From NCBI GenBank assembly GCA_949358305.1, contig OX442314.1, positions 56,429,369 to 56,493,368 of the forward strand: 64,000 nt of DNA, given 5' to 3'. Origin of the DNA: Strigamia acuminata. Its lineage: Eukaryota; Arthropoda; Chilopoda; Geophilomorpha; Linotaeniidae. Below the pieces are notes generated by a model, which was given only the letters and a program-made list of their open reading frames with translations, was not told where the DNA came from and ran no database searches. The position numbers were made by a program, and so were the translations under genes. This document shows, piece by piece, positions 10,705 to 43,596 of the stretch; position 1 is the first letter of the stretch, and each line of letters opens with the position of its first letter.

Positions 10705-11990
10705 TGTTATTAAATACTTTTTAAACGACAAAAAAATCATTAAAAAAATGATACCGGTAATCATTGATTGAATGCAATGCAATAAAACTATGCACACTAT
10801 TAGGAAAAAAGATACAACTAGCATTCTCTAATAACGGTGATGTAAAATTCAGCAAGCATTCAAACGATGTGGAAAGAGATCTTGTTTCAATTATCAATGC
10901 AAATGCCACATTCATGGAGGAATGGGGTCTTACAGTAGCAATAAATGTAAATGCCACATTCGTATGGGAATGCAGTCTTACAATACAAAAATATCAAACT
11001 CAAGAAACGTGAAAAGGAAAGCAAATATATGACCAGAGCTCTCTTCTGGTTCCACCGAGACATTCCAAGTCATCAGTTTATCCAGGGGTGACCACGCGGA
11101 GGTAGAGAGTTGGATTTTACACCCCCACAAGCAGAATTCTTACTTCAAATACTTCAAATTCTGTTTTACTACGCTTCACTCCGAACAATTGGAAGTTGGA
11201 AGTTCACTCGGCATCGTCACATCGGATGGGGAGAAAATTCTAACATGCAGATATCAAACCGAGCCTAAAAAACAAAAAATTATACATGAATTTCAATGAA
11301 AATGTCAAAAAATGTAAAACTTACATTAAATGCTGTGAGAAATAGCCGCATTTGAAGTTCAATTCGAGTAAAATCATCGCCTTCGCGTCGTTACTTGAAC
11401 GAACGAACCATTCCGTTCCGAGTCTCGATTCAAAATGGTTGTGTGTGGCTACGGGGTGTACGGAAGAAAAACAGGGATCTACTCTAGACAGAACAAATCT
11501 TTCAAGAAATCTCGCGGCAAATACGAATTCATATTTGAATGATGTGTGTACGTTTACACTTTAAGTAGAATTAGAATTGGATGTATTGGACAGGATACAA
11601 ACATTACAAAAATAAAAATATACCAATATACCAAGTGATGCATTTCATTTTCAGATGGCTTCTTTCTTCTTTCTTTAAAATACTCATTTCAATAAATATA
11701 TTTTGATAAAATTCAATGAAATTTGAAAATTGTTGACAACTTTAGCCAAATTTCACAATTTCTTTGCAGGATGAAAATAAATGTTTGATTATTTTTCACA
11801 AATTTTTAGTAGACAAATAAATAAAATGCATTCATATTTGACAAATAACCGTATTGGGAATGCATTTCATAATAATAAAAATGCGTTGGTTAAATAAAGA
11901 AGTGAAGCCAGTCAAAGACCATCCACGTCTCTTCGTCTATTGTCCATCCAAACTGGATTGCAGATGGCGCTGTCTCCAGATTGCGTTGAA
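10705..11990. other. No supported gene
   Basis: Short open frames only. The one at 10764-11012 contains an imperfect internal duplication (NANATFMEEW and NVNATFVWEC). The remainder is AT-rich with no recognised motif. Confidence 0.35.
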
Positions 11991-11993
11991 AGA

Positions 11994-12440
11994 TGTGGTG
12001 ACATCAAATGTACGCATTCGAGTGAGCACCATATTTCTAAATAATCTAATAATAATCTAATAAATAAAAAGCCCTTCCATTGAGGGAATTGACATTGAGC
12101 TTGCTCTGTCAATTCGGGAGGTGATTTCTGTGTTAAGCTTTCTCCAAGGAAGTCAGCACTGTGTGTTTGAGGAGATTTTGGCATTGAGTTTACTCTGCCA
12201 AAATCTGTCCTCACGCAACGCCATCTTGGATCGAGCAAACCGTGAGTGTGTACTTTGGAGAAGACGTTTTACCCCTATCTTATTAATATTATTTCCTACT
12301 GTGTTTTATTTGGAATAATTACAAAAATTATTATTTCAGTTTATTTTGTGTATTAAATCATTCCCCTAGACATCACAGCCATTGAGTAGAAGTCCCTTGT
12401 GGCATCTCAACGGTGATTTATAAAACCCGGATCGCCGCCA
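11994..12440 (+). mobile_element. Solo LTR related to element 1
   Basis: Starts TGTGGTGACATCAAATG like element 1's TGTGGTGACCTCAAATA and ends CCCGGATCGCCGCCA like its CCCGGATCGCCGCA. In between it shares the GAGCTTGCTC/GAGTTTACTC hairpins, CGCCATCTTGGA, GTGAGTGTG, TCATTCCCCTAGACA and GAGTAGAAGTCC. It is 447 bp against 1074 bp, lacking much of the U3-side sequence. No primer site or internal region follows, and I see no target duplication, so it is an old or truncated solo LTR. Confidence 0.8.
12076..12205 (+). promoter_or_regulatory. Two conserved hairpins in the solo LTR
   Basis: Hairpin a: arms GAATTGACA (12076-12084) and TGTCAATTC (12097-12105) around TTGAGCTTGCTC. Hairpin b: arms GATTTTGGCA (12174-12183) and TGCCAAAATC (12196-12205) around TTGAGTTTACTC. 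Both are perfect. A decayed third copy may lie near 12130-12150. They share their tops with the array in element 1's LTR, while the stem of hairpin b differs by paired changes. Confidence 0.75.
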
Positions 12441-18036: not shown

Positions 18037-18715
18037 GTGTGTCTTTAAATTCATGCTCTATTAAATAATTTCCAAAATTACTTATTATCCACCTTCTCAT
18101 GGAGTGGCAAACTTGTTGTTACAATCAACCTCTCAATATGTGGTGACCTCAAATATTCCTATTTGAGTGCGCACCATATTTCCAAATTGTCTTATAAACA
18201 TATTCAACAAGCTTATATGTTTTGTTTCAATGTAAATTGAAATAAAACATACATTAATAAAATATAAAACAAGACACAATATTACCCAAATAATATTGTG
18301 TTTTGCAGCAAGTTTTGGCCCAGCAACAGCGTCAACCAATCGCGCTGCAGCGTGCATTGCTTTGATGATGCTGCTAGGCGTGTGCCTGGGCGGAGCATCC
18401 CTTCCCCTCGCGCGTGCCCGGCTCAATTGTTGCACACGACCCGAAGGCGGCCGTGTGTGATCTTTGTGCAACTCGTCATCTGCGCAGCTTTTCTGAGCAG
18501 ATTTAGAAGTGAGCCAAACGGTTTTGGCCCACTCTTCCCGCACTCTTGATCCTGCTTCCAAACCTTTCACAACCGTGTCAAACTTATGCCCAAACTCGCT
18601 AAGTGTGATCTGTGATATTGGAAGAATCGAGATTCATTGCTGGTCCGTGCCAACTGTACGGAATAGCGCCCTTCTGCTTGAATTACTACGCGTAATTTAA
18701 GCCATTTCTGTGTGG

Positions 18716-18927
18716 AATTGACATAGAGCTTGCTCTGTCAATTTGAAGGCTTTGTGTTGAGTTTAACTCCACAAGGCAGATTGTGTTAAGACGGATTGTT
18801 ACGTCGAGCTTGCTCCGTAATAATCACTTTCACCGTGTGTGAGAAGTATTCTCGTGTCGAGCGTGCTCCACGAGGATTTTAGAATATTTAGCAACGTATT
18901 TTAGCGTCGAGTTTACTCCGCTAAAAT
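18716..18927 (+). promoter_or_regulatory. Array of five related hairpins in the element 1 LTR
   Basis: H1 18716-18743, arms AATTGACA/TGTCAATT. H2 18749-18777, GCTTTGTG/CACAAGGC. H3 18795-18824, ATTGTTACG/CGTAATAAT. H4 18848-18877, ATTCTCGTG/CACGAGGAT. H5 18898-18927, ATTTTAGCG/CGCTAAAAT. The stems have different sequences but each pairs over 8-9 bp, with at most one G-U. The tops are nearly constant: 2 unpaired bases on the 5' side (TA, TT or TC), GAG, a loop CTTG, CGTG, TTTA (TTTAA in H2), then CTC. As RNA, CUUG is a known stable tetraloop whose C and G pair. Repeated in the 3' LTR at 30113-30324. Confidence 0.85.
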
Positions 18928-18977
18928 CCCGCGCTCACACGACGCCATCAACGCCATCTTGGAGCCAACGGTCACCT

Positions 18978-18983
18978 GTGAGT
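18978..18983 (+). promoter_or_regulatory. Candidate splice donor in element 1 leader
   Basis: CCT|GTGAGT lies downstream of the hairpin array, after CGCCATCTTGGA. The solo LTR keeps GTGAGTGTG in the same context (12242). If used, it could supply the 5' exon of a spliced mRNA for ORF3. Position only; use is inferred. Confidence 0.35.
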
Positions 18984-19214
18984 GTAGACATTGAAGAAGA
19001 AGCCAGATCGACCCCAAACATTATTATTTCATTTCAAATATACCTCCTTTGTATTTTGAACAATTAAAACTATCTAATTTTTCCTTTACTCTGTGTAAAA
19101 TCATTCCCCTAGACAAACATTTGGCCACAGAGTAGAAGTCCTGTACGGCATCTCTACGACGATTGCTTATTGAATTTACATAATTTAATAAGTAAAAACC
19201 CGGATCGCCGCACT

Positions 19215-19232
19215 TGGGGGCCCGTCCGGGAT
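19215..19232 (+). promoter_or_regulatory. Primer binding site, tRNA-Pro-like
   Basis: TGGGGGCCCGTCCGGGAT starts 2 bases after the LTR. It differs at one position from the well-known tRNA-Pro primer site TGGGGGCTCGTCCGGGAT. Element 2 has the identical 18 bases at 33059-33076. Confidence 0.8.
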
Positions 19233-19304
19233 AGTTTTGATTGTTAAAATCCGATTTTTGCGAAAAAATCCTTTATTTCCATTGTTCTTTTTCAATTTGA
19301 CAAA

Positions 19305-22196
19305 ATGGCGACGCCAATGCAAATTGTAAAACGACAGCGAGGTCGACCAAGCACTCAGAAACGAGCAGCGACGGTTTTGCCGGCTCTCGAGCCTGAAATG
19401 CTTATGAAGAAAATTATTTCCGAGGAAATAACACCAGTTCCAGATCCGAAACAACTTAAGGATGCTGAAAATGAAGTTGCTAGAGCATTAAGCGCTTCAA
19501 GTGCGAGTTCTAACGACCAAGAACTCCCGCCACTTCCACTGGAGAAAGTGGAAAATACGTTACGTGAAATGGAAAGTGAATCGTCTCACGAATCACCTCC
19601 TCGCATGACCATGCTGGATGCTTTGAGAAATCAAGCACGCCAGGATGGCGCCCAAATAACGGACGACATGACGGTGGAAGAGATTCATCGCGCCATGATA
19701 CGACTTCACACTGACCGAGCCGTTTCAAATTTAAAATTTGAAATGGAACGGAAAGAAGCAGAGCTTCAACAACAAAAAGCTGAGGTTGAGCTTCAACACA
19801 TGGAACTCAATCGACAAAATGAAGAATTTCTAGCCCAAAAAGCTAGAGAATACCGATTAAAAGGTGAAGTGGAAGATCTTTCTAAAATGAACGCTAGAAA
19901 TGAACTTTCAATTCGCTCACACCAAGAGGCGCGAAGACAGCTCGAGCTTACCAAAAGTAAACTGGAGCAGAAAAATAAAGAACTGATTGATTTGGCAGAC
20001 CACTACCAACGCAATCATAATCAACTAGTGAGATATGCTGCTGAATTAGACACACGTGCTAAAACACAGCGTACTCGCGAAAGCAAAATAGCTAAGCGCG
20101 AAGACGAGATTTTCCACTCTCTGGATCAACCCAGTACGAGCGGACAAGTCAAGTCTAGCGGCCCTGCTAAGCGATTACAAGAAGAATCGCAAAATCAAAT
20201 AAATGAGAATGAAATTCTCCGAGCTGATTTGTTGCGCGCTCAAGAGGAGCTTGCAGAAATGAAAGATCATTTGCAAGCAAGGAATTATACTGACCAATTG
20301 GTACAACCAGAAATGGCTGCGCCAACTGTCCCTATTTTGACTCCCGAAACAATAACAATTTCCGTTGTTTCAGAGTTAAGTAGCCAATCTGGATTATCGA
20401 GTGATGACGACCAACGTTCGCGTCGCCGCCATCGCTCAAAAAGAAAACGTCCTTCAGATTCCGAGGAAAGGAGAGCTGATCGCAATCCACTTCCTGGTAA
20501 TCGAAATCCTATTTTTCACAACAGTGACCGACTGTTGGGGATGGTAGACGATCGAAATAGGCGGCATGAAACTGGTATTCATGTTACTCGAACGATACCA
20601 CTGGCTCAACAGCAAGACTCGTCGAAAAGAAGTCGACGAGACACGAATCCAGCACGCGAACCACCCGACGGACATGAAAGCCCACCAGGTGGGGGACAGT
20701 ATCGGAGAAATCCACCAGATGGAGGAAATCCAGATGGACATGGAGATGGACCACCTGGAGGTGGACGTCGACCGCCAGACGATGACGGCGACCCACCCGA
20801 CCCACCTGAAACACCACATTTTAACACGCCTTCAAATTCACAATCTGATTCAAGGTCGGATTCTGATGTGAATGCGCAACAAGAACGCGATAATCGACAT
20901 CGATCTCATCGACGTCGACATCGAGGCCATTCTTCTCGGCGTAATACACATTATTACACCGCTGAAGAAATTGATCGATTATTAGCTGATCGTCGATCTT
21001 CCGATCGATCTGACGCTACTGCCGATAATGCTGACATTGCATTACGACAAAAAATTGCACAATACACTGCCAACAACTGGACTCACGATCTAGTTGATGA
21101 AAGAACTATTAGATGGGATCACATCAAACCCGCTTTATTCGATGGAGAATGGGAAGCTGGATCCACTCTTTTAGATGAAGTTTTACGAATTTCAAGGTTG
21201 AATGGCATTGCATGTCACACTGCTTTGAAAAGAGTAGTACCTAAAGCTCTTATAGATCGAGCTGAGAAATGGTTTTATTCTAAACAATTTCAAAATTGGA
21301 ACCACTTTGTAGAAGAATTCATGACTGAGTATGGAGAGTCAAGTGAAGACTTATTACAAATGTGGGATAATCTTTCTCAAAATAAAGGCGAAAGTCTTCG
21401 CTCTTATTTAAGAAGGACTGAGGATTTATTGGTCACTCTCCCTTATACGATGGGAGATGCAGCCATTGATCGTCAATTCCGACGTGGATTGACAGATTAT
21501 TCAAAAAATGTTCTACTTTCAGTACGAGCACCTTATCCGGGTGGTTTCGCTGAATTAGCCAAATTTATGCGAGCCAATCAGATAAGGATTGATGAAAATT
21601 ATAAAGCTTATCTACCAGCTGATGAAAAAGTTGCGTACGCTAAGCGACAGCAACGGAGAAAGGAGTTGGCAAAAGACACACGTTTTGCTAACACCCCTCT
21701 TTTGCAACCCCCAAAACGAGGAGATTTTTTGGCAGAGACTGCTAAGGAATCTAAAAAGGGATCGGATGGGAAAAATCCACATCCAACCCCTAAAGCTCAC
21801 TTAGCTGAAGTGACAGAAATGGAAACTGTTTCTGAACCAGAGAAATCTGACTCGGAACCAGAAAGCGAGGCTGCAGCTGCTTTATTAGCCCGTAATAACG
21901 CAGTAGCTCGAAAATTTGGACCAAAGATGGCGCCTAAAAACGTTACTTTTGGTTCACCAAAGACAGACGCGCTCAGTAGACCGAAGTCGCCGACCCCTAA
22001 AAAGGACGAAGCCAAACGTTCAAGTTCGCCTTCGCCAAAAGTCGCGAAATCGCCTGCTACTGACCCGTGTAATATTTGTAAAAAATTAGGACATTGGGCT
22101 AAAGAATGTCCTGACAGAAAATCGAGCAAAGACAAGATTTTGGAAGAGTTCGAAAAATCGATGAAATCAATCGGCGAACTTCTAAAAAACTTGTAA
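19305..22196 (+). CDS. gag: Element 1 gag polyprotein (963 aa)
   Basis: Structural protein that would form the particle and package RNA. Start is CAAAATGG. The N-terminal third is basic, then a long Glu/Gln/Lys-rich coiled coil (about residues 135-265). A low-complexity region rich in Arg/Ser and then Pro/Gly/Asp/His follows (about 355-560). The conserved capsid-like domain is at about 575-740 (TIRWDHIKPALFDGEW, WNHFVEEFMTEYGE, LRSYLRRTEDLL). A single zinc knuckle, C-x2-C-x4-H-x4-C (CNICKKLGHWAKEC), is at about 922-935. This is much longer than usual Ty3/Gypsy gag because of the coiled-coil and RS/Pro-rich insertions. The stop overlaps the open pol frame by about 80 nt. Confidence 0.9.
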   Translation: MATPMQIVKRQRGRPSTQKRAATVLPALEPEMLMKKIISEEITPVPDPKQLKDAENEVARALSASSASSNDQELPPLPLEKVENTLREMESESSHESPPRMTMLDALRNQARQDGAQITDDMTVEEIHRAMIRLHTDRAVSNLKFEMERKEAELQQQKAEVELQHMELNRQNEEFLAQKAREYRLKGEVEDLSKMNARNELSIRSHQEARRQLELTKSKLEQKNKELIDLADHYQRNHNQLVRYAAELDTRAKTQRTRESKIAKREDEIFHSLDQPSTSGQVKSSGPAKRLQEESQNQINENEILRADLLRAQEELAEMKDHLQARNYTDQLVQPEMAAPTVPILTPETITISVVSELSSQSGLSSDDDQRSRRRHRSKRKRPSDSEERRADRNPLPGNRNPIFHNSDRLLGMVDDRNRRHETGIHVTRTIPLAQQQDSSKRSRRDTNPAREPPDGHESPPGGGQYRRNPPDGGNPDGHGDGPPGGGRRPPDDDGDPPDPPETPHFNTPSNSQSDSRSDSDVNAQQERDNRHRSHRRRHRGHSSRRNTHYYTAEEIDRLLADRRSSDRSDATADNADIALRQKIAQYTANNWTHDLVDERTIRWDHIKPALFDGEWEAGSTLLDEVLRISRLNGIACHTALKRVVPKALIDRAEKWFYSKQFQNWNHFVEEFMTEYGESSEDLLQMWDNLSQNKGESLRSYLRRTEDLLVTLPYTMGDAAIDRQFRRGLTDYSKNVLLSVRAPYPGGFAELAKFMRANQIRIDENYKAYLPADEKVAYAKRQQRRKELAKDTRFANTPLLQPPKRGDFLAETAKESKKGSDGKNPHPTPKAHLAEVTEMETVSEPEKSDSEPESEAAAALLARNNAVARKFGPKMAPKNVTFGSPKTDALSRPKSPTPKKDEAKRSSSPSPKVAKSPATDPCNICKKLGHWAKECPDRKSSKDKILEEFEKSMKSIGELLKNL

Positions 22197-25100
22197 GCGC
22201 GCATCCAGACGGTCTAGTGGATGCGACGCCTACCGCCTCGGAAAACGAACTAACACCATCTCAAATTTTAGATGAATTTTTAAATAAACAGATTAAATTA
22301 GAATTAGAAAATAATTTAATATTTCCAAAAATTGATGTTTCCAGTTTAAGGCTTGTACTGCAAAATGAAAACATCACTGAAGAATTTTTTAAAGAAAAAG
22401 TTCAACAATTAAAAGTTAATTGGGAATCTAAAATAAAAGATGCTGTTACTTTACTAGATGAAAAAGCTAGGCCAACACCTGAAATTGTTGAAAGGTCAGA
22501 TAAAATTGATTTACCTGGTCTTGACGATTGCATTAAAAAATTGATGGCTACAACGTTAGTCACTAATGATTTATTGGACGAATTACCATTGGATCCGCCG
22601 ATAGAAATTAAACCACCGCGACGTTTTAAATGCAAGTACGCGGACATACCAAACAGCAATGATTTGCCGACGATTCGATTGCAGACGGCAAACGGTATGA
22701 TAACAGGGATGTTAGACTCTGGAGCTAATCGAAGCTTCATGGCCTACTCCATAGTAATTTCACTGAAACTGGAAGATGAAATTCGACCAATTGGACCGGA
22801 TGTGAGAGTTACGACTGCTTCCGAAGATGTAGTCCCTGAAGGAACTCTCCTACTTTCTTTTGCGTGGACTCACGGGATGTTAAGTCATCCATTCATAATT
22901 TTAAGAAATAAATATCCTATTGTTTTATTAGGATGTGATTTTATGAATCGACTCAACATACAACCAAATCCTAAGACAATGTCTTGGAATTTTGTCAAGT
23001 CTTTGAAAGAAGATTTACCTTTTGTTCCTCAAGCGATTCTTGATCGTTATCAAGAGTTTCTTGATCCACCCGAAGAAATCATGAAACGCGACTTTATTAA
23101 AGCAAATCACATGAAAGCTGGTTCCGCCACTGCATGTCAAGCTAAAGTTGCCGATGAAGAAAATATAGTACAAAGACTTGTTAGCGACGCTAATTTGTCG
23201 ATGGAAAATAATTTAATGCTTGAAAGAGTATTAAAGAAACATGAAAAGATTTTATCACGCCGACCAGGTAGAACACACCTCGTTAGGCATGAAATTAAAC
23301 TGGACACTAAAGTTCCAATTAGAGTTCCGTTTAAAAGCGTAAATCCACAGAAACGTGAAATTATCCGTCAAATCTGTCAAGACATGTTGGATAATGGATA
23401 CGTTGAACAAGCCACTGGAGACTATGGAATGCGAATAGTTCTAGTGATGCGTCCGGATTGTGATCCGAGACTCTGCATTGATTTTAGACCACTCAATGCG
23501 CATACATTATACGATCCTCCTCAAATGCCGAGCATTGAGGAAATCTTGCGAGAACTCGGAAGATTTGAATGGGTCACAACGATAGATTTGTCAAAAGGCT
23601 ATTGGCAAATAGAGGTTCATCCGAATGACCGTGCTAAAACTGCGTTTTGGAGCCCTTTGGGTCGACTTCAATTTCGAGTCATGCCCTTTGGTCTCGTAAA
23701 TGCGCCGTCAACTTTCCAAAAGTTGATAGAAAAAATTTTGGGGGACGCCTATCGAAAATTCGCATGGGCATACCTCGATGATATAATTATTATATCAAAA
23801 AATTTTGAAGAACACATGATTCATCTGGAAGAAATCCTGAGTAAACTTGAAAATGCAAATCTTCATGTTCATCCAGAAAAATCAAAATTTGGCAGAAAGG
23901 AATTAACTTTTCTTGGTTACAAGTTAAGTGTTCAAGGAGTTAGTGTCGACCCTAAAAAAGTCGCAGCTATTAAAGAAATGCCAGCTCCTTCGAATTTGAA
24001 AGAGTTGCAAAGATTTTTGGGAATGGTGAACTTTTTTCACCGATTACTTAAAAATCTTGCAGTAATGACAGAACCTCTGCGTCCTTTACTCAAAAAGGAT
24101 GTGGAATTTATTTGGTCAGAAATTCATCAAGAAGCTTTTAATCAAATAAAAGATGCTTTAACAAATGCAGAAACAATGGCCATGCCTGATTTGACAGAAC
24201 CATTTATTGTGCATACCGACGCCAGCAGAAAAGGACTTGGCGCCGCGCTTATGCAAATGAGGGAAATCGATGATCAAAATATAGAAGTGCCTTGTGTTTA
24301 TGCCAGCAGAAGTTTGCAACCTGCTGAGATAAATTACAGCGCCACAGAATTGGAGTGCCTAGCGGTAATCTGGGCATTACGTAAATTTCGACATTACTTG
24401 GAATTTACAACATTCATAGTAAGGACTGACCATCAAGCACTAAAATGGTTGATGCAGTTAGACGAACCTGCCGGAAGGTTAGCACGTTGGCAAATGGAGC
24501 TAATGCGCTACTCTTTCGAAATACAATATATTAAAGGTCCACTAAATGTTTTAGCGGATGCTTTATCCAGATCACCGATTGATAAACCGGAAAATCCTGA
24601 AGATGATGGAGATAATGATGAATTATTATCTTACTGTCCATCACCACAACGAAATTGGAAAATGGGAAAATTTCATGAGCTTCCTGTCTCCACGCTGGAG
24701 GAAAAGGAAGATCACGAATTCGTCAACTATTGGACTAAAATCTATGACCCCTCTGAGGAATCAGATGACGTCATAAGAGCGCAAATTTCAAGGAAATTCC
24801 AAGTTCCTTCGTCAAATGTTTTAATAAAAGCATTTGTCGCCAAAATTGTAGAGCGTCTTGATTGTGAACCTCCCACAAGGGAAGACATAATCAAGGCCCA
24901 AAAAGAAGATAAAGTTTGCCAATTGATGCGTAATTTTTTAAATTGTAATCAATTTCCGCCTGACGTCACAACGCGACTCCAGAGGAAACAATATAGAAAA
25001 CACGCAACCACCTTCTTAATTGAAGATGACTTATTAATGCAATTTCATCCCACAATGTCTGATGAATTGGGGGAGGATGGGAGAGCACTCAAAGTTTTTG

Positions 25101-26665
25101 TACCTCAGACATTGAAGTATAAAATTATTTGGCTAATGCATGGCCACCCACTTTCTGGCCACCCAGGAATTGCAAGGACTCTTTATCGAGCACGCCGAAT
25201 TTATACCTGGAAAGGCATGAAATCGGACATTACGAGATTCATTCGACATTGTGAGCGTTGCCAAGCTTGCAAGCCTCGAACGAAAGGACAAATTGAAGCA
25301 GCGCAAATGGGTCCTTACAGCCCATTTGACTGCCTAAGTGTTGATTTGACCGGCCCGAAACCTCGGACGCGCAAAAACAACACACATATTTTAGTCATAC
25401 TTGACGTGGCAACTCATTGGCCAGAATTATATCCAATGTGTAACCCCACTGCTGGAAAAGTAGCAAATTGTATTTATCACCTTTCCATGAGCATGGGATT
25501 CCCTCGTAAAATTATTTCTGACAACGGCCCGCAATTTCGTGCCCAAGTCTTTAAAAAATTTTGTGAAAAGTTCAAGATGGTTCCAACACCAACTTCAACG
25601 TATCACCCACAAGCTAACCCGGTTGAAAGGGTTAACCGTGACATCAAATATTTGGTTGCAATTTATTCATCTATTCATTCCAAATGGGACGAATATTTGC
25701 GTGAATTTGCATTTAGTTTGAGAACTACGGTGACGAGAGGAAGAGACTTCTCTCCCGCATTTCTTAACTTTTTTCGCGAACTCAGAGTACCTTGGGATCC
25801 AAGAATACCTGAAGGAATTTTGGTCGTAGATCCAAAAAACCCACATTTATACGTGCAAAAATTAGAAGCCGTTATCGCCGAAACATATCAGCACATGATG
25901 TCACACGTGTTAGATTTGCGTAGACGAGTAAATCTTAAGAAAGAAGGTGAGAAGTTCTCCAATTTTAAATTAAACGATTTAGTTTGGAGAGATTCTCATG
26001 TTTTGTCGAGCGCTGCCCGCGGCATTGCAGCTGGCATCGCTGATAAAAGAACAGGACCATATGTAATAACCAAAGTATTACAGGGAGGATCCGTAGAATT
26101 GAGAAAGCTAGAAAATAACGAAATATTTCCAGCTGTCCATTCGTCTGAATTAACTCCGTATTTCCCGAGTTTCGATCAGGAAGTATGGTTAGAAGGCGAA
26201 GAAGTCGGTCAAAAGACCGAAAATATAATTAATACGTTAGATGACGATGAATTAAAGAAAATACCTGTCGATAATTCATCCAAACCACAAATGGAGTCAG
26301 ACCTCGTGAATAACGACGTTGAACTTCGTGACAGTTTCAAAAAGCTTGAAATTGCTAAAAAATTAAATAAAAAGGTGTTTTTAGAAAAGAAACAAAAAAC
26401 ATCTGAAATAAAAGACTCATCTGACTCAGTCTCCGATGACAATGAAGACGGCGATTTAAATACAATAAATCCCTCGCCGACAAAGAGATATAATCTTCGG
26501 ACTCGTAAACCGAGAGGAAAAAACAACATGTGTCTTCTCCCCTCGATAACCTCGAGATCCAGGGATCAGCCTTATGACGTCAGGAGCAATTCCTCGAGCC
26601 CTAAGGTAACCAATCAACCAATGAGATTGGATGACGTCGCTAACAGCGACGTTACCCAAACGTAA
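22115..26665 (+). CDS. pol: Element 1 pol polyprotein (protease-RT-RNase H-integrase)
   Basis: The frame is open from 22115 with no ATG near its start. It is entered by -1 frameshift from gag; the GTG at 22217 is not a likely start. Positions counted from 22217: protease LDSGANRS (Asp about 167); RT with YLDD (about 519-522); RNase H TDAS (Asp about 668) and TDHQAL. The integrase has the zinc domain H..H..C-x2-C (HGHPLSGHPG...CERCQACK, from about 975) and catalytic D1063, D1102, E1137 (LDVATHW, SDNGPQF, NPVER), followed by a GPY module (TGPYVI, about 1280). The last 150 residues are charged. All catalytic residues are present; the product should copy RNA to cDNA and integrate it. Confidence 0.95.
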   Translation, partial: QKIEQRQDFGRVRKIDEINRRTSKKLVSAHPDGLVDATPTASENELTPSQILDEFLNKQIKLELENNLIFPKIDVSSLRLVLQNENITEEFFKEKVQQLKVNWESKIKDAVTLLDEKARPTPEIVERSDKIDLPGLDDCIKKLMATTLVTNDLLDELPLDPPIEIKPPRRFKCKYADIPNSNDLPTIRLQTANGMITGMLDSGANRSFMAYSIVISLKLEDEIRPIGPDVRVTTASEDVVPEGTLLLSFAWTHGMLSHPFIILRNKYPIVLLGCDFMNRLNIQPNPKTMSWNFVKSLKEDLPFVPQAILDRYQEFLDPPEEIMKRDFIKANHMKAGSATACQAKVADEENIVQRLVSDANLSMENNLMLERVLKKHEKILSRRPGRTHLVRHEIKLDTKVPIRVPFKSVNPQKREIIRQICQDMLDNGYVEQATGDYGMRIVLVMRPDCDPRLCIDFRPLNAHTLYDPPQMPSIEEILRELGRFEWVTTIDLSKGYWQIEVHPNDRAKTAFWSPLGRLQFRVMPFGLVNAPSTFQKLIEKILGDAYRKFAWAYLDDIIIISKNFEEHMIHLEEILSKLENANLHVHPEKSKFGRKELTFLGYKLSVQGVSVDPKKVAAIKEMPAPSNLKELQRFLGMVNFFHRLLKNLAVMTEPLRPLLKKDVEFIWSEIHQEAFNQIKDALTNAETMAMPDLTEPFIVHTDASRKGLGAALMQMREIDDQNIEVPCVYASRSLQPAEINYSATELECLAVIWALRKFRHYLEFTTFIVRTDHQALKWLMQLDEPAGRLARWQMELMRYSFEIQYIKGPLNVLADALSRSPIDKPENPEDDGDNDELLSYCPSPQRNWKMGKFHELPVSTLEEKEDHEFVNYWTKIYDPSEESDDVIRAQISRKFQVPSSNVLIKAFVAKIVERLDCEPPTREDIIKAQKEDKVCQLMRNFLNCNQFPPDVTTRLQRKQYRKHATTFLIEDDLLMQFHPTMSDELGEDGRALKVFVPQTLKYKIIWLMHGHPLSGHPGIARTLYRARRIYTWKGMKSDITRFIRHCERCQACKPRTKGQIEAAQMGPYSPFDCLSVDLTGPKPRTRKNNTHILVILDVATHWPELYPMCNPTAGKVANCIYHLSMSMGFPRKIISDNGPQFRAQVFKKFCEKFKMVPTPTSTYHPQANPVERVNRDIKYLVAIYSSIHSKWDEYLREFAFSLRTTVTRGRDFSPAFLNFFRELRVPWDPRIPEGILVVDPKNPHLYVQKLEAVIAETYQHMMSHVLDLRRRVNLKKEGEKFSNFKLNDLVWRDSHVLSSAARGIAAGIADKRTGPYVITKVLQGGSVELRKLENNEIFPAVHSSELTPYFPSFDQEVWLEGEEVGQKTENIINTLDDDELKKIPVDNSSKPQMESDLVNNDVELRDSFKKLEIAKKLNKKVFLEKKQKTSEIKDSSDSVSDDNEDGDLNTINPSPTKRYNLRTRKPRGKNNMCLLPSITSRSRDQPYDVRSNSSSPKVTNQPMRLDDVANSDVTQT
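22184..22229 (+). promoter_or_regulatory. -1 ribosomal frameshift signal, gag to pol (element 1)
   Basis: Slippery heptamer A AAA AAC at 22184-22190, in register with gag codons. The spacer is TTGTAA (22191-22196, including the gag stop). Then comes a stem: GCG plus CGCATCCA (22197-22207) pairs with TGGATGCG (22218-22225) and CGC (22227-22229) with one bulged A. A shift of -1 enters the pol frame, which is open from 22115. The same arrangement with different stem bases is in element 2. Confidence 0.85.
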
Positions 26666-26873: not shown

Positions 26874-29360
26874 ATGGAAGGAGAGGAACCGAAAGAAGGA
26901 AGCGAAGCCGGCGCCAACAGCCTCGAATTAGAAACAAATTCGACGCTGCTTGGTTCCGCAAATACTTCGAATACATCCGTGGATGTCACCGAAGAGTCCG
27001 CCGAAGCGTCCGCCGAAGCTCAAGCCGCTCTGGCCGACGCTGCTGCCCGTTTGCCAGTCGCGCCGCCCCGACCACAACTTCGAGGAGGCCTATTCGCCGA
27101 TCCAAACGGCGAAACTCGTGCACAGAGACACGACCGGATCATCCAGCTTCGGGAGACGCATCTCGAACTGCACCCCGATGTTCCAACAGCTCCTGGTGTC
27201 TGGCGACATGCATTGCCGCCAGAAATCATAAAGTCTAAAGGACGACTGACGTTTTGGGCGGCCCGACACAAGTTCTCCAAGGCCTTAAACAAGCGATGGG
27301 GAACGAAGTTTCGGATCGCCTATTTAATCGATGGATTCGGTCATCGCGACGCCCTCGAGTGGGCAATGAAGCGCGATACCTTCGGACCACTGCGAAACGT
27401 GTTGCTTGACTTCGCCTTCACAGTGATCAATCAAGAAACGCGAGACCATCGCCGTTACTTCAACGCTCCTGCGTGGGAGCGTCGACAGATTCTAGAGGAC
27501 ATTTTCCAACGCTTGGACCAAACCAAAGCCGAGGTTGTGCGCCTCTACCACGAATCTTTCCGTGTAACAACGGACGGAAAGAAACGTTGGGTGCCGACAT
27601 GCCAGTCGGAAATGCATCAACTAGCCATGGGCGGATGTTTCCATGCTGATTTTGTGCCAAACCCGTATCCAGAGCCTGAGCCCCGGGTACAGGTCGCTTT
27701 CACCATCCACGTGGTGCCACCGCGCTCCACGTCGAGGTCACGATCATCGAGGTCGCCCTACAGTGGCCGTCGCTCCTCCCCAACACAGTCGTCGGGGGAA
27801 GGCGCCATTGGAGGGTTACCTCCACTCCAGAAGGCTCGTCATCGCTCGCATCACCGACGCGAGTCGACGCCGCCAAAAAGACATTCGAAGTCCGTGTCGA
27901 GACCCGCATCCCGAAGCCGACCTCGAGTGCAATCGCGCCAATCTTCCACGAGGAGTTCACTCTCGTCGCGCGAAGAAAGATCCAACGCTTCTCAGCTTAG
28001 CGCTTCCACCTCCTCCTGCCAGATTGACTGGTCGGATGAGATAGCGAAGGAAGATCGTCGCATCGCCGCATTGCAAGCCGGTCAGGGAGACGTCACAACC
28101 TCTTTACCGTTCGCTTGCCGTCCAGTCACCAGCGACATGCGACCAGACCCATCGGTGCCCGTGCCACACGTGACATCGGTCATCCGTTTTGAGGGATACG
28201 TCTCTCAAGAACCATTTCCCGCACAGGAGTGCGCTGATCTCTGGAGGCGATTCTCATCGTTTCCCGAGACAGCCCAAACGATGTACCTCGCGCATCTGGA
28301 CGAATACCAACTCGCTCAGATCCGCGAAGGAGAGAAGGAATGGCAATGGCTTGCCCGAGAGCTTGCGTCGTGCAAGTCCGACAAGCAACTGCAACGGACG
28401 CTGCAGAAAATGAACAGGAAATTGTCGGAGGGACTGCTTCGAATCCTGTTCCAAGGAGTCTTTCCCGACCCACAGATTGCTCTGGCGGCCGCCACTCGAT
28501 TGTGGACCGTGCCGTTAGGGCTTCCACGAGCCTTGCTGGACGATTGGGAGTCAGTTCGCCCCGATCCTCCAACGATGCTCGCCGAATTGACGCAACAAGC
28601 CGAGGCGACTGGCGAAACTCCGGCTGGATCCGCCATTCGACTACGGCAGGAATGGGCTGCGCTGAAGCAGCGACGCGCAGCAGAACGAGCTACCGCCCGT
28701 CCCGCTGGCGCACCACCGTCATCCGCAGCTCCACTCCACGCTGCCATCACGGCAACGTCGAGTGTTTCCCGTGCAACCGAGGCACCGAGTTGCAACATCT
28801 CGTCTCCGATGGAATGGCTCGACAGCGACGATCGCGAGTTCGTCGTGCCTGTGGCCTGCGGTGCCAGACCAAAGACGCGCACCCCGGCTTTGCGCAGATC
28901 CAGATCCCTCTCGATCTGCAAAAAGTCGCCGCCACCGCCGCCTCCTCCAAAGGATTCGCCGCCAAGAGATAGGGGATCGAGTATGGCCACCCACCTCACC
29001 GCCTATCAACGTTTGCGCTCATTATACGCCTTTTGCTACATAACGAGCGCGACGAAAACGATTCTCCAGAACAGCGAGGATTTATGCAACCGAGTCCTCG
29101 CGTGGCTGGAAAACCACATCAAGGAACAGCAGCCGTGGATCCTGCATCAACGCCTGGTGTTCGCTCGAATTACGCCTCAAGACCCGCAGGAGTATTTCGA
29201 GATGGGTTTTGGACGAAGGGATGGTGTGGACCGCATCAAGCAAGTGTGGCTCCACATCAACCCTGGCTTCCGGTCAGGACCAAACGCCGGCCGACCTTTG
29301 TGCACCGTCACAGAGCACAAAGATCCCAACGATCATTCAACGGACATGCTGCCTAAATAA
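26874..29360 (+). CDS. Element 1 ORF3, 828-aa protein of unknown function
   Basis: Occupies the position where errantiviruses have env, but shows no signal peptide, membrane segment or fusion-like stretch. The N-terminus is acidic/Ala-rich (1-60). A helical, Trp/Arg-rich region follows (about 100-265: FWAARHKFSKALNKRWG, SEMHQLAMGGCFH). An Arg/Ser-Pro region spans about 285-380. A second helical domain covers about 440-610 (ILFQGVFPDPQIALAAATRL, DPPTMLAELTQQAEATGETP). The well-conserved C-terminus is RVLAWLENHIKEQQPWILHQ, DPQEYFEMGFG, WLHINPGF. ORF3 of element 2 aligns along its whole length. By eye the DNA is much richer in G+C than gag and pol of the same element. ATG context CAAATGG is good. 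Role unknown; RNA or gag partner is only a guess. Confidence 0.8.
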   Translation: MEGEEPKEGSEAGANSLELETNSTLLGSANTSNTSVDVTEESAEASAEAQAALADAAARLPVAPPRPQLRGGLFADPNGETRAQRHDRIIQLRETHLELHPDVPTAPGVWRHALPPEIIKSKGRLTFWAARHKFSKALNKRWGTKFRIAYLIDGFGHRDALEWAMKRDTFGPLRNVLLDFAFTVINQETRDHRRYFNAPAWERRQILEDIFQRLDQTKAEVVRLYHESFRVTTDGKKRWVPTCQSEMHQLAMGGCFHADFVPNPYPEPEPRVQVAFTIHVVPPRSTSRSRSSRSPYSGRRSSPTQSSGEGAIGGLPPLQKARHRSHHRRESTPPKRHSKSVSRPASRSRPRVQSRQSSTRSSLSSREERSNASQLSASTSSCQIDWSDEIAKEDRRIAALQAGQGDVTTSLPFACRPVTSDMRPDPSVPVPHVTSVIRFEGYVSQEPFPAQECADLWRRFSSFPETAQTMYLAHLDEYQLAQIREGEKEWQWLARELASCKSDKQLQRTLQKMNRKLSEGLLRILFQGVFPDPQIALAAATRLWTVPLGLPRALLDDWESVRPDPPTMLAELTQQAEATGETPAGSAIRLRQEWAALKQRRAAERATARPAGAPPSSAAPLHAAITATSSVSRATEAPSCNISSPMEWLDSDDREFVVPVACGARPKTRTPALRRSRSLSICKKSPPPPPPPKDSPPRDRGSSMATHLTAYQRLRSLYAFCYITSATKTILQNSEDLCNRVLAWLENHIKEQQPWILHQRLVFARITPQDPQEYFEMGFGRRDGVDRIKQVWLHINPGFRSGPNAGRPLCTVTEHKDPNDHSTDMLPK

Positions 29361-29535: not shown

Positions 29536-30609
29536 TGTGGTGACCTCAAATATTCCTATTTGAGTGCGCACCATATTTCCAAATTGTCTTATAAACATAT
29601 TCAACAAGCTTATATGTTTTGTTTCAATGTAAATTGAAATAAAACATACATTAATAAAATATAAAACAAGACACAATATTACCCAAATAATATTGTGTTT
29701 TGCAGCAAGTTTTGGCCCAGCAACAGCGTCAACCAATCGCGCTGCAGCGTGCATTGCTTTGATGATGCTGCTAGGCGTGTGCCTGGGCGGAGCATCCCTT
29801 CCCCTCGCGCGTGCCCGGCTCAATTGTTGCACACGACCCGAAGGCGGCCGTGTGTGATCTTTGTGCAACTCGTCATCTGCGCAGCTTTTCTGAGCAGATT
29901 TAGAAGTGAGCCAAACGGTTTTGGCCCACTCTTCCCGCACTCTTGATCCTGCTTCCAAACCTTTCACAACCGTGTCAAACTTATGCCCAAACTCGCTAAG
30001 TGTGATCTGTGATATTGGAAGAATCGAGATTCATTGCTGGTCCGTGCCAACTGTACGGAATAGCGCCCTTCTGCTTGAATTACTACGCGTAATTTAAGCC
30101 ATTTCTGTGTGGAATTGACATAGAGCTTGCTCTGTCAATTTGAAGGCTTTGTGTTGAGTTTAACTCCACAAGGCAGATTGTGTTAAGACGGATTGTTACG
30201 TCGAGCTTGCTCCGTAATAATCACTTTCACCGTGTGTGAGAAGTATTCTCGTGTCGAGCGTGCTCCACGAGGATTTTAGAATATTTAGCAACGTATTTTA
30301 GCGTCGAGTTTACTCCGCTAAAATCCCGCGCTCACACGACGCCATCGACGCCATCTTGGAGCCAACGGTCACCTGTGAGTGTAGACATTGAAGAAGAAGC
30401 CAGATCGACCCCAAACATTATTATTTCATTTCAAATATACCTCCTTTGTATTTTGAACAATTAAAACTATCTAATTTTTCCTTTACTCTGTGTAAAATCA
30501 TTCCCCTAGACAAACATTTGGCCACAGAGTAGAAGTCCTGTACGGCATCTCTACGACGATTGCTTATTGAATTTACATAATTTAATAAGTAAAAACCCGG
30601 ATCGCCGCA
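29536..30609 (+). mobile_element. Element 1, 3' LTR
   Basis: 1074 bp, identical by eye to the 5' LTR except one base (30347). It carries the second copy of the hairpin array (30113-30324). Followed by the AATA target duplication. Confidence 0.93.
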
Positions 30610-31877: not shown

Positions 31878-33056
31878 TGTTACGATCTCAAATGTTCACT
31901 TCATTTGTGAAGAAGTTTTTCTACCACGTTTTTTAAATATTATTTATATTTAAACCATAATCATTAGAATTGTGTTTTTTGCCGTGCACCTGTTGCGCTT
32001 TTGGGCAATTGGCCCAGAAGCTGTAACGGCTGCCCTGGCATTTTGAGCCCTGGATTGGGGCGTTGCTAAGTCAATCCCCAAATTTTGCACCGTTGCTAGG
32101 GCTGAAGCGTGCCTTGGCACACGCCACGCCTGCGCACTGGCCGTTTTCCGGCCATATTCCGAGTAATAATTCGAATTATTACTCACTCTTTGCATCACAC
32201 TCATACCGTTCACACCGACACAGCTTTGTTCACAACCAAAAACACTGTTTTGTCCGTGACTCGTGAGTTTTGCCAAGTTTCAACCCGATTTGTTTGAACC
32301 AACGTTCAAACGAATCACTTTCCGAGCCGCGAAGACGACGCACGACGGCCCAAACCACCGTCGTTCCCGCCGCCGCCCGAAGACCAACGCGCCCACGCCG
32401 TTGAAGATCGACGCCAGCCAGCCGCCGAGGATTGCAGAGCCATCGTCGCCGCTCCTCGACCTGTTGACGACGATTCCGATTCAGATTGTAGCGGATCTCC
32501 AGTCAGGTTTTAACGATCGGCGGTACCCGCCGTTTGACTACTTGTCTCCAACGGAAATCTCCCGTTGCAATCTAGGGTTTAACCCAAGATTTCCCGTCTT
32601 ATCAGGCTTAACAGCCGACACTCTTTGTGAAGTCTTTCGGCTTCGCACTTCCTTTCTCACTTCGCAGAATTTGCGCGGCGACGTGTCGCCATTTCTGCAC
32701 TGCTTTTTCCCGCCCGAAGGAGTCCCGCGCTGCTTCGAGCACGTCGCCTTCTACGCCGACGATCTTATCCTCATAGAACCCATTTTATTAACATTCACTT
32801 CAATTGAACCTGTAATTAACGCTCAATAAATTGATTAACTGTTTGATTTAAAATAACTAAACTAGCCTTTATTCGAGATCAAATCCCTAGACACCGACTT
32901 AACGGCTAACCCACCCGATAGAAGACCTATAAACGGCATTCAACTGCTTCCACAGGTGAACGCCGGGATCTCTTGCAATTGGAAAAATCCCATAGTGACT
33001 AAATATAAATTTAGTGTTGTTGTGAAAAGTCAATTGGAACCAGCAGGAACGCAACA
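31878..33056 (+). mobile_element. Element 2, 5' LTR
   Basis: 1179 bp, TG...CA, the same length as the 3' LTR. One difference found: A at 32275 against G at 44249. TATTTATATTTAAA (31940-31953) is the likely TATA region; AATAAA at 32825-32830. It contains a 24-bp perfect palindrome (32161-32184, arm GAGTAATAATTC), a 13-bp stem (32287-32316), and several G+C-rich stems (CGGCGG/CCGCCG at 32518-32532, GGCGAC/GTCGCC at 32677-32690). CCCTAGACA near the end is shared with element 1. Confidence 0.93.
32263..32829 (+). CDS. 188-codon ORF inside the LTR of element 2
   Basis: Open from an ATG at 32263 to a TAA overlapping the AATAAA. The 3' LTR copy (44237-44803) differs at one residue (Lys to Glu at residue 5). 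The predicted protein is Arg/Pro-rich at first, then contains FPPFDYLSPTEI-like and LTADTLCEVFRLRTSFL stretches. No family recognised. The same region folds into many hairpins, which could keep stop codons rare by chance. It would lie in the transcribed leader, so it might act as an upstream ORF. Coding is uncertain. Confidence 0.3.
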   Translation: MSFAKFQPDLFEPTFKRITFRAAKTTHDGPNHRRSRRRPKTNAPTPLKIDASQPPRIAEPSSPLLDLLTTIPIQIVADLQSGFNDRRYPPFDYLSPTEISRCNLGFNPRFPVLSGLTADTLCEVFRLRTSFLTSQNLRGDVSPFLHCFFPPEGVPRCFEHVAFYADDLILIEPILLTFTSIEPVINAQ

Positions 33057-33058
33057 CT

Positions 33059-33076
33059 TGGGGGCCCGTCCGGGAT
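33059..33076 (+). promoter_or_regulatory. Primer binding site, element 2
   Basis: Same 18 bases as in element 1 (TGGGGGCCCGTCCGGGAT), 2 nt after the LTR. tRNA-Pro-like. Confidence 0.8.
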
Positions 33077-33147
33077 AACCAATTGTTTAAACTTAGAATT
33101 TATTCCTACTTTCCTATCATCTTTCTCTCTTATCTGTCTAACTCAGT

Positions 33148-40962: not shown

Positions 40963-43596
40963 ATGGTAACGGGAATTTTTAGAGGCGAATTATCCGCCGA
41001 AGTCCGACGTTTACGACAACTTGGTCAGACGTGGGAAGATGTGAGACAAGAGTTCTCAAATGCCATCGCCGCACATTGGGGCTGTAGATGCCGAATTTGT
41101 GGACGGCTAATGGTAGCCGACCCCGTTTCCTGGAACCTAAGGATCGATCCGCCATCACCGTTGAGATCCAGATTGCTTTTTGGCTGGCTCTTTCCCACGG
41201 AGGAGGAAGACACGGACTTCTACGGGTTTTTCCGAATCCCTCACGCCAAAAGGAACGATTATTTGGACGCCATTTGGGAGAAACTCAAGGCCCGGAAGGA
41301 TGAAGTTATGCGAAAGCTGCAAGAAGAGCAGGCCTGGTGGGCCGATCGACATAAACATTACGATTTGGCAGATCTCGCCAGTTCCCAATATGAGATGCAT
41401 ATTCTGGGAATGGCCGGACATTTCGGCCACGCTCGTGCCCGATTCCGAGACTGGGAACGTCAAAGAGACGCATATCACGACCAAGGACGCAATGATAAGC
41501 GAGAGCGATCGAGTTCAGTTGCATCAAACGAACCACGTGCCAAGATGACCTGTGGCAATCACCACCATACGGCTTCGAGAGCCGTCGATAATGTTTTGGA
41601 AGCCAGAGTTTCACGATGGGACGCGGCTTGCCGATACCCTGGAGGAGTGGATCCATACGTCGCTCGCCCAGGAACCAGACCAGAATTGCTTCGTGCCAAC
41701 GGCCGACTCAAGCATCGTGCAGGCCGACAAAATCGTGAAAAGTTGGAGCGCGAACGCTTGGCCCTGATGCCACCACCGCCCAAGGACGACGAATTGCCTG
41801 GCAGATGGGATCGTGAAGTCGAAGAGCATTCCATGCAAGTCACTCTTCGCAAGAAAGCAGCATTGGAGCAACAGCAAGCCGATTGGGATGCCTGTTTCCA
41901 ATCGCCTGATGCAGAAGAACCAACGATAGGATCTAATGAGACTTTGATGTTAAATACACCAACGTCAGTGTCCGCCTTGGAGGGAGGAAGTTCCGCAGAA
42001 GTCCACATCGTAGACCGAAGCTACAGAATTTCACCCCCCGCGATGGCCGACAACACGGCCTGTGAATGGAAGAGCCTTCCAAACACACAAAATTCGAATG
42101 ACCAGGCGAACCACCGGCCAATCGAAGGGCTGATTCCTGTAGAGTGTAGAGAGTACACGGATTCGATAAATCCGGACCCGAGTCTTCCAGAGCCTCGATT
42201 GCCCACGAGAAAATTCGGAATGGTATCCCAAGTTCTGAAAAAGGGATTCGATCAGCATTACGACGCCATGTGGCAGAGGTTCTGCGAAGCGCCGTTAGAG
42301 ACTCAGGAGATTGAGTTGTCTGATATGGACTTATACCAGATAGCTCAAGTCACCGAGAGTTTGAAAGGTAGTCGTCGTGTCGCCGGCTTACTGAACCGAA
42401 TGGAGCCGACGGGACCCGACGACCCACGTTTGAACGAGTTACAGCGACAGCTTGTGCCGAGTTATCGGAGAATTTTGTTTCCCGGGGTGTTCGACAGCCC
42501 GAGACCAGGCTTCGCTGCCACCACGTGCCTAAGAACGGCCGCCATGGCCGTTAAACCAGAATTTCTAGATTGTTGGCGGTCCATCCAATTGGATCCGCCC
42601 ACCATGTGCAGCGAACTGATGCGCCAAGTCGCCGTCATTGGGGAAAATCCGGCCGCATCGGCCATTCGTCTCCGACGCGAGTGGGACATGCGCAAGATCA
42701 CGTTCCAGCAAGAGCTGAAAACGATTCGACCGGCAGGAATGCCGTCGAGGGATCAGACGCCTAGAAGGAAGACGCCAGAAGCCACTTACACGCCAACTGC
42801 TGCCGCAATCGAAAGCCGAGCTGTTGCCCAAACTACGACTGAACCGTCCAGTGGTCCTGTCCCTATGGAGATAGAAAATTTCGACGATCCAAGACCTGGA
42901 CCGAGTCGAGGACGAGCTGCAGCACCAAGCTCAACTACGTTTTTCACGCACGTCGAAAACACCGATTCAGGGGCGCGACCCAAAACGCGACCGAAACCGC
43001 GCGGAGCTTTGACCCTCCGGCCAGGGGGCCGATCTTGTTACGTAAAACGTCCAGACGAGTCAGCTGCGGCGCCCAACCCGCCAACACCACCAAGGAGCGT
43101 TCATTCGCCTATCCGAGCACCCACACCATCGCCCGGAAAAGACGATCCGAAGATGCAGATTCAATCGGCGGCCGGAGCTGCCGAAACCAAGAAGCAAGAA
43201 AGCAGTCCAATCTACATTAAGCTGCGAAGAACTTACCCAAGACTCGAGATGCATCCGCATACGAGGATTTTGCTCAAACACAATGTGGAACTTTGCCACC
43301 ACGTTTTCAACTGGCTTGAGCGGAAGATACGAAAGAAGAGGCCGTGGATGTTGCATCAACGGCTAATCCGAGCTCGCCGACGCCCGTCCAACCCGCAAGA
43401 ATTTTACGAAATGGCGTTTGGAGATGACGCCTTATCCCGACTCATCCGAAGTGTGTGGATACACGTCAACCCCGGCCTGTCATCTGGGCCGAATACGGGA
43501 CAACCGTTCATCAATGTTAACGAGAGTGGAAATCCGTTATCCGACGAGACGGACATGATGTCAATAGACCTACCTTCACCTAAAACACCCGAGTAG
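40963..43596 (+). CDS. Element 2 ORF3, 877-aa protein of unknown function
   Basis: Homologue of element 1 ORF3. Shared landmarks in order: YEMHILGMAGHF (against SEMHQLAMGGCF), YRRILFPGVFDSPRPGFAAT (against ILFQGVFPDPQIALAAAT), QLDPPTMCSELMRQVAVIGE (against DPPTMLAELTQQAEATGE), SAIRLRREW, SGARPKTRPKPRGALTLR, and the C-terminal HVFNWLERKIRKKRPWMLHQ, NPQEFYEMAFG, WIHVNPGLSSGPNTG. A CRCRICG cysteine cluster near residue 43 is absent from element 1. No signal peptide or membrane segment. The middle is low complexity, Pro/Arg-rich. As in element 1, the DNA is richer in G+C than gag and pol. ATG context CCCATGG is strong. Confidence 0.8.
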   Translation: MVTGIFRGELSAEVRRLRQLGQTWEDVRQEFSNAIAAHWGCRCRICGRLMVADPVSWNLRIDPPSPLRSRLLFGWLFPTEEEDTDFYGFFRIPHAKRNDYLDAIWEKLKARKDEVMRKLQEEQAWWADRHKHYDLADLASSQYEMHILGMAGHFGHARARFRDWERQRDAYHDQGRNDKRERSSSVASNEPRAKMTCGNHHHTASRAVDNVLEARVSRWDAACRYPGGVDPYVARPGTRPELLRANGRLKHRAGRQNREKLERERLALMPPPPKDDELPGRWDREVEEHSMQVTLRKKAALEQQQADWDACFQSPDAEEPTIGSNETLMLNTPTSVSALEGGSSAEVHIVDRSYRISPPAMADNTACEWKSLPNTQNSNDQANHRPIEGLIPVECREYTDSINPDPSLPEPRLPTRKFGMVSQVLKKGFDQHYDAMWQRFCEAPLETQEIELSDMDLYQIAQVTESLKGSRRVAGLLNRMEPTGPDDPRLNELQRQLVPSYRRILFPGVFDSPRPGFAATTCLRTAAMAVKPEFLDCWRSIQLDPPTMCSELMRQVAVIGENPAASAIRLRREWDMRKITFQQELKTIRPAGMPSRDQTPRRKTPEATYTPTAAAIESRAVAQTTTEPSSGPVPMEIENFDDPRPGPSRGRAAAPSSTTFFTHVENTDSGARPKTRPKPRGALTLRPGGRSCYVKRPDESAAAPNPPTPPRSVHSPIRAPTPSPGKDDPKMQIQSAAGAAETKKQESSPIYIKLRRTYPRLEMHPHTRILLKHNVELCHHVFNWLERKIRKKRPWMLHQRLIRARRRPSNPQEFYEMAFGDDALSRLIRSVWIHVNPGLSSGPNTGQPFINVNESGNPLSDETDMMSIDLPSPKTPE

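Follow-up and report, generated by a model that had tools for sequence, protein, structure and literature searches.

A five-hairpin array with constant tops and covarying stems in the LTR leader of a Ty3/gypsy-type element of Strigamia acuminata

A young Ty3/gypsy-type element of the centipede Strigamia acuminata carries five hairpins at 18715-18927 (~212 nt), repeated in both of its LTRs. Positions are those of the window, the whole stretch of 64,000 nucleotides of contig OX442314.1 that was analysed. The tops of the hairpins are nearly constant, while their stems vary in sequence and stay paired across the copies of the host genome; selection almost certainly acts at the level of RNA. The pattern of constraint within the top suggests how a protein might read the array, as argued below.

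The five hairpins are where the first-pass annotation placed them, all on the plus strand, and have the geometry it described: stems of 8-10 bp, a 2-nt bulge on the 5' side and a GAG/CTC top. H1 (18715..18744) has a TA bulge and a CUUG loop, H2 (18749..18777) a TT bulge and a five-base UUUAA loop, H3 (18794..18825) a TC bulge and again CUUG, H4 (18848..18877) a TC bulge and a CGUG loop, and H5 (18898..18927) a TC bulge and a UUUA loop. The description of the loops as CUUG-type thus stands for H1 and H3 only of the window's array, and not for H2, H4 and H5. A solo LTR (about 11990-12437) contributes two further units on the same strand, hairpin a (12086..12115) and hairpin b (12175..12204), the latter a compensatory relative of H5. 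Direct reading of ATTTTGGCA/TGCCAAAAT in hairpin b against ATTTTAGCG/CGCTAAAAT in H5 confirms the two compensatory pair changes reported between them.

The host element is a Ty3/gypsy LTR retrotransposon by its LTR pair, its PBS, its gag and a pol in which RT-RNaseH precedes integrase. The 5' LTR (18139..19212, plus strand, 1074 bp, with TG...CA ends) and the 3' LTR (29536..30609, plus strand) are 99.907% identical over 1074 bp, so this copy is young; the 3' LTR holds the same array, with hairpin units at 30112-30324. Gag (19305-22196) has Pfam matches to Retrotrans_gag and CCHC, and pol (22217-26665) to reverse transcriptase, RNase H and integrase. After pol comes a third frame (ORF3), which matches nothing in Pfam, either here (828 aa, 26874-29360) or in a second element of the window, element 2 (877 aa, 40963-43596). 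The PBS-like sequence (19215..19232, plus strand) recurs in element 2 at 33059. Its complement is found at 323 places in the genome, and the four of these that were scanned showed no tRNA gene. The LTRs of element 2 contain a 188-aa open frame (32263-32829 and 44237-44803) with a GTG start and an HRRSRRRPK stretch; given that start, in a stretch with one ATG, it was not called and is probably no gene.

Within the window the design is confined almost entirely to these LTRs. A scan of both strands (stem of at least 5, bulge of 2, GAG-N4/5-CTC) returned 12 units, five in each LTR of the element and two in the solo LTR, vs a mean of 0.35 units in 20 first-order Markov simulations of the window. 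Looser settings (bulges of 0-4, loops of 3-6) added three isolated hits, at 33458, 59784 and 59792 (minus strand). A covariance model of the hairpin unit gave 12 matches at the same places and no others at E<=5; the model was built partly from those same places, and the search shows only the absence of further units.

The design recurs across the host genome. Searches with the array and its relatives as queries scored the best candidates only, and copy numbers are accordingly lower bounds. Places where one match spans all five hairpins, some of them fetched twice, gave 101 extractions, which reduce to 69 distinct arrays and to 65 distinct over the H1-H5 core. The 69 do not count solo-type and truncated arrays, whose hairpins, where they keep the top pattern, are included in a set of 116 units. 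In three copies (L110, L111 and L114) H1 is preceded by two further hairpins, one H1-like and one H2-like, an extra H1-H2 module that makes apparently seven hairpins. At two more places six tops stand in a row (G000:C1:8946769-8947036 and C1:8968049-8968316), where the arrays are apparently extended as well. In the genome as a whole there are 1395 occurrences of the top pattern TYGAGYKTRCTC, vs 758 of the backwards pattern. In many copies (L097, L020 and others) CTGTGTG-type linkers recur before H1, H3 and H4, and these could be a second, single-stranded binding site.

Pairing is kept throughout this variation. Tallied over the 69 arrays, standard base pairs fill 3055 of the 3093 cells proposed for the stems, 1015 of the 1029 for the tops and 340 of the 342 for the inner loop pair. 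The covariation claimed for the inner pair is borne out: among 322 countable cells of the 65 distinct cores, 317 are Watson-Crick, 3 are G-U and 2 are mismatched, and in the 116 units the pair is CG in 81, UA in 31 and UG in 4. To assess covariation over the family's LTR copies, the check proposed with the initial description, we used our own implementation modelled on R-scape, not R-scape itself. It takes a FastTree tree and parsimony, re-deals the substitutions on the branches, and scores column pairs by a G-test with average-product correction against 200 uniform and 100 rate-weighted null alignments. Four of the 30,135 column pairs tested reached E<0.05 under both nulls, and all four lie in proposed helices. 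Significant were stem pair 6 of H1 (TA 48/CG 19; E 0.02 under one null and 0 under the other), the inner pair and stem pair 8 of H2, and stem pair 1 of H5 (GC 37/AT 31/GT 1). With the test limited to the 65 pairs that had been proposed, significance was reached by 6 under one null and by 7 under the other. A wider alignment (645 columns, 205,761 pairs, 60 null alignments), made from the 53 of the 69 arrays with enough flank, gave three pairs at E<0.05. Two are inside H2 and H5; the third, 18594-18626 (A-A/C-G), is no base pair, so the test does yield false positives. The H1 pair had E=0.13 in this alignment.

The set of 116 units, picked by the top alone, gives a second view of the stems. In 110 of them 7-9 of the 9 stem positions pair, and 95.1% of the 1508 cells are paired vs 75.7% after shuffling. 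The covariation score is 0.632, vs 0.250 for shuffled units (0/500) and 0.095-0.192 for slid ones, and two-sided changes account for 351 cells vs 108.4 when shuffled. The number of pairs with a two-sided change shows no difference (10 vs 9.3 shuffled; 181/500). Thermodynamic support from predicted folds is moderate. The folding energy of the 212-nt array is moderately low (z -2.57, with 3 of 200 shuffles as good); the minimum-energy fold holds all five hairpins (at least 75% of their pairs) in 32 of the 69 arrays, and each single hairpin in 48-57 of them.

The kinds of non-Watson-Crick pairs found bear on whether the paired molecule is RNA or DNA. Cells of this class include 254 G-U and 29 A-C. 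Inferred changes away from Watson-Crick pairing led 73 times to G-U and 26 times to A-C, vs 92:80 for the equivalent mutation types in linkers and flanks (Fisher p=0.0012), the count and its linker control following slightly different parsimony schemes. The bias rests on the stems, since the three top pairs alone give 7 changes to G-U and 9 to A-C. The excess of G-U over A-C points to plus-strand RNA, and a DNA palindrome or cruciform is disfavoured, as G-U is tolerated and A-C much less so. Covariation, G-U bias and unit statistics agree, and they uphold the earlier claim that the stems vary yet pair under selection for RNA structure.

The array very probably sits in leader RNA, as judged from the avoidance of ATG up to gag, which argues for a scanned mRNA leader. 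The stretch of 716 nt that contains the array and runs up to the gag start codon (18589..19304, plus strand) has 0 ATG vs 12.1 expected, with AGT, GAT, GTA, TAG and TGA present 9-13 times each. Among the 32 complete LTRs (those of 44 listed rows with both ends found), 27 lack ATG from the start of the array onward; the other five are L094, L020, L032, L070 and L071. Four leaders of sister families (L129-L132; 629-649 nt) contain 0 ATG each vs 8.9-10.2 expected, and the corresponding 1270 nt of element 2 (31878-33147) contain one. The first-pass annotation had set the array in leader RNA downstream of a TATA. The place in leader RNA is supported; the TATA, TAATTTAAG at ~18692-18700, is rejected, being part of the 3' arm of a covarying hairpin, H0. 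A transcription start downstream of the array would still leave an RNA role possible, because in LTR elements the copy in the 3' LTR would still be transcribed. Directly 3' of the array, at ~18944-18963, ACGCCATC is repeated with a CATCTTGG end, which could bear on the start site; these CATCTTGG-ended repeats resemble a YY1 site.

Conserved structure extends past the array on both sides, on the same strand, in three more covarying hairpins whose tops differ from those of the array. Upstream are H-1 (18644..18662), which has another top and 7 pairs, paired in 51-53 of 53 rows with C-G/T-G/T-A and A-T/G-T exchanges, and H0 (18676..18702), with 11 pairs, paired in 49-53 of 53 rows, one of them T-A 44/C-G 7/T-G 2. 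Near the LTR end is H6 (19166..19192), with 10 pairs, paired in 49-52 of 52-53 rows and with several exchanges. No array-type hairpin was found in the four sister-family leaders (0/4), and element 2 also is without the array. The sister leaders fold into other stem-loops, one of them like H0 by eye, and the Gag segment of those families is 33-47% identical to the query. Judged by these four leaders and by element 2, the array seems to have arisen within this lineage.

Rates of change single out two features of the top. Pair-2, with 0.10 changes per site, and the first bulge base, with 0.20, are the slowest. Pair-3 (0.70), pair-1 (1.10), the stems (1.90) and the inner pair (1.90) form a middle range; the loop (2.70), the linkers (3.16) and the second bulge base (9.00) are fast, the last perhaps partly by CpG decay (TCG/TTG), in our own reading. 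Over the 65 distinct cores the first bulge base is a pyrimidine throughout, T in 323 of 324 cells and C in one. Pair-2, the second above the bulge, is A-U in 322 of 323 cells. A purine precedes the bulge just as often (322 of 323). The pair before the bulge is nearly always Watson-Crick (G-C 220, A-U 94, G-U 8 and T-C 1 of 323).

This pattern can be set against a known motif. In the arginine sandwich, as described in the parts of PMC9378691 used here, a bulge pyrimidine and the n+2 base pair together make up a triple, and the nucleotide before the bulge is Watson-Crick paired. The portion of PMC6189040 on which we draw gives the triple U23:A27-U38 for TAR, with A22 before the bulge, and U40:A43-U66 for 7SK, with A39 before the bulge; it counts four arginine-sandwich bulges in one 7SK stem, and reports that placing G-C before the 7SK bulge abolished the binding of HEXIM and left that of Tat. 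The two slowest features of the array's top, the U at bulge-1 and the A-U at pair-2, are both partners of this triple. By our own rough estimates, a 2-nt bulge suits the motif on base identity by chance in about 1 in 8 cases, and the two slowest of seven features are the triple partners in about 1 in 21. The case for an arginine sandwich therefore rests on the constraint pattern. The match of the top to the motif is suggestive, not proof, and recognition of the hairpins through an arginine sandwich is a serious possibility that falls a little short of probable.

Our preferred explanation is that the array would act in cis within the transcript of the retrotransposon, as an RNA element of its 5' leader. 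On each hairpin there would be an identical small protein-docking surface, with the stem sequence free provided that pairing holds. The bulge U and the A-U pair may form a U.A-U triple that caps an arginine sandwich as in TAR and 7SK; an arginine-rich protein would then insert one arginine per hairpin, with several molecules side by side. Taken as a whole chain with the ligand left open, a multivalent binding site for some arginine-rich protein is a tentative reading, to which we give not quite an even chance.

The likeliest candidate ligand would be the element's own Gag, through residues 371-385 (RSRRRHRSKRKRPSD; 20415..20459, plus strand), marking genomic RNA for packaging. This stretch is the sole 15-residue window with at least 8 R+K in Gag, and pol and ORF3 of the array-bearing element have none. 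Over the 101 residues that surround it, 92 of the 107 matches listed reach 91-100% identity and the rest 33-83%, among the best 150 of 274 candidates, which were the ones scored. An arginine-rich stretch is present in five of five Gag segments from sister families (L124-L128); it is thus not specific to array-bearing families, since sisters without the array keep a related one, and there is no basis for tying it to the array. The stretch could be a nuclear-localisation signal. We consider Gag a possible ligand of the hairpins, on the doubtful side.

The host also has components that such hairpins might engage. Its 7SK gave one match over cut-off (56.6 bits, or slightly better at 58.8 bits with the arthropod model, as would suit an arthropod host; G000:C1:11838216-11838504). 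The UU of its bulge region, CAUUGAUC, is unpaired in the structure line of the covariance model and when a 55-nt piece is folded, not when a 75-nt piece is. Two HEXIM loci exceed the Pfam cut-off, one of them with a basic KTKKHNRGKGRKHKWRPYYKL stretch. The sequence CAUUGAG, close to CAUUGAUC, occurs in both solo-LTR hairpins and in many array hairpins.

The hairpins might accordingly be copies of the bulge of host 7SK stem-loop 1 that engage HEXIM/P-TEFb or another host arginine-rich protein, binding on the nascent transcript so as to regulate elongation, in convergence with lentiviral TAR. The host's 7SK and HEXIM loci and the nearness of CAUUGAG to CAUUGAUC fit such mimicry. However, TAR uses its hexaloop too, and the loops of the array have 2-3 free bases. 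In the portion of PMC6189040 cited above, moreover, G-C before the bulge abolished HEXIM binding, and here that pair is mostly G-C, a pair other than G-C being found only in H1 and part of H5; HEXIM mimicry is therefore less likely, and we regard this reading as distinctly improbable. Since Tat tolerated G-C at this place, we favour Gag, or some other arginine-rich protein resembling Tat. A reader that is not arginine-rich, either the zinc knuckle of Gag or a host RNA-binding protein, could recognize the bulge-GAG-loop top in the service of packaging, export or translation. Constraint on the entire GAG/CUC top, beyond the triple, would suit such a reader, as would the CCHC match of Gag and the CTGTGTG-type linkers; but by itself it gives no account of why bulge-1 and pair-2 are slowest and the loop nearly as fast as the linkers. 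We think it unlikely, if worth keeping in view. A wider claim, that this invertebrate element evolved in its LTR leader, apart from lentiviruses, an array of 7SK/TAR-like arginine-sandwich hairpins, near in sequence to the bulge of the host's 7SK and capturing the host's elongation machinery or the element's own arginine-rich Gag, with hairpins multiplying (five, apparently seven) while stems drift, would as a joint claim be rather unlikely.

Two further explanations dispense with a protein that reads the top. The hairpins could adjust how ribosomes scan or shunt to gag, with the constant top serving stability or unwinding; an ATG-free leader here, and likewise in the four sister families, with one ATG in element 2, agrees with control of translation. 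Yet stability needs neither an unpaired 5' U nor an A-U at a fixed step, and the sister leaders manage without the array, which leaves this a very improbable account. Selection on RNA might also be lacking altogether, the inverted repeats being similar through template switching between arms or through recent shared ancestry. The copies are indeed related and many are young, and template switching can copy arm to arm in inverted repeats. Against this, the one-sided 2-nt bulge and the G-U pairs persist, and arm-to-arm copying would not spare such a bulge; the preference for G-U over A-C exceeds the linker control; and phylogeny-aware nulls fall short of the scores of four helix pairs, with the reservation that one non-helical pair passed in the wider alignment. 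We judge this explanation extremely improbable. Loop-loop kissing or dimerisation looks unlikely on direct reading, with 2-3 free loop bases.

Parts of the design have counterparts in known systems. Retroviral and retrotransposon packaging leaders contain several hairpins in the LTR or leader upstream of gag; the array differs from them in its identical tops on sequence-unrelated, covarying stems. The Su(Hw) insulator array of Drosophila gypsy consists of tandem protein-binding repeats in the leader region, but these are DNA sites, whereas the pairing and the use of G-U in the hairpin array point to RNA structure. HIV TAR, with its hexaloop and its Tat transactivator, has in common with the array a 5' pyrimidine bulge followed by G-C and A-U pairs in an LTR leader. 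The array differs in its 2-nt bulge, in its loops of 4-5 positions with the closing pair, which are not hexaloops and have 2-3 free bases, and in the number of its hairpins, five or, in some copies, apparently seven. A search for Tat gave no match at E<=0.001 in four proteins (Gag, pol and ORF3 of the array-bearing element and ORF3 of element 2). Rfam gave no match in the window at gathering score, TAR and 7SK included; with the array at E<=10 it gave neither TAR nor 7SK, and only a weak tobamovirus pseudoknot (E 1.8) and PYLIS_3 (E 8.1).

A limited search of the literature on LTR leaders, weak as evidence of absence, found nothing like the array in the parts of the sources that it covered. 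To our knowledge, covariation supports RNA elements in the leaders of few LTR retrotransposons other than vertebrate retroviruses. Structured LTR leaders and the TAR/7SK-type bulge are known; what appears to be new is such a bulge repeated along leader RNA. Each leader holds five hairpins, and the copies number in the scores; the array thereby supplies natural replicates. These set the positions that would be read by a partner (the first bulge base and the A-U pair) apart from those that need only pair. The two features so separated correspond to U23 and A27-U38 of TAR, as numbered in the portion of PMC6189040 used here. With 7SK stem-loop 1, the host's own included, the array shares a 2-nt pyrimidine bulge followed by G-C and A-U; by the same portion of PMC6189040, 7SK sets four bulges in one stem, where the array has one bulge per hairpin, usually preceded by G-C. 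Should the partner prove arginine-rich, TAR-type recognition would have arisen once more in an LTR element, and the host's own 7SK and HEXIM would allow the two to be compared directly.
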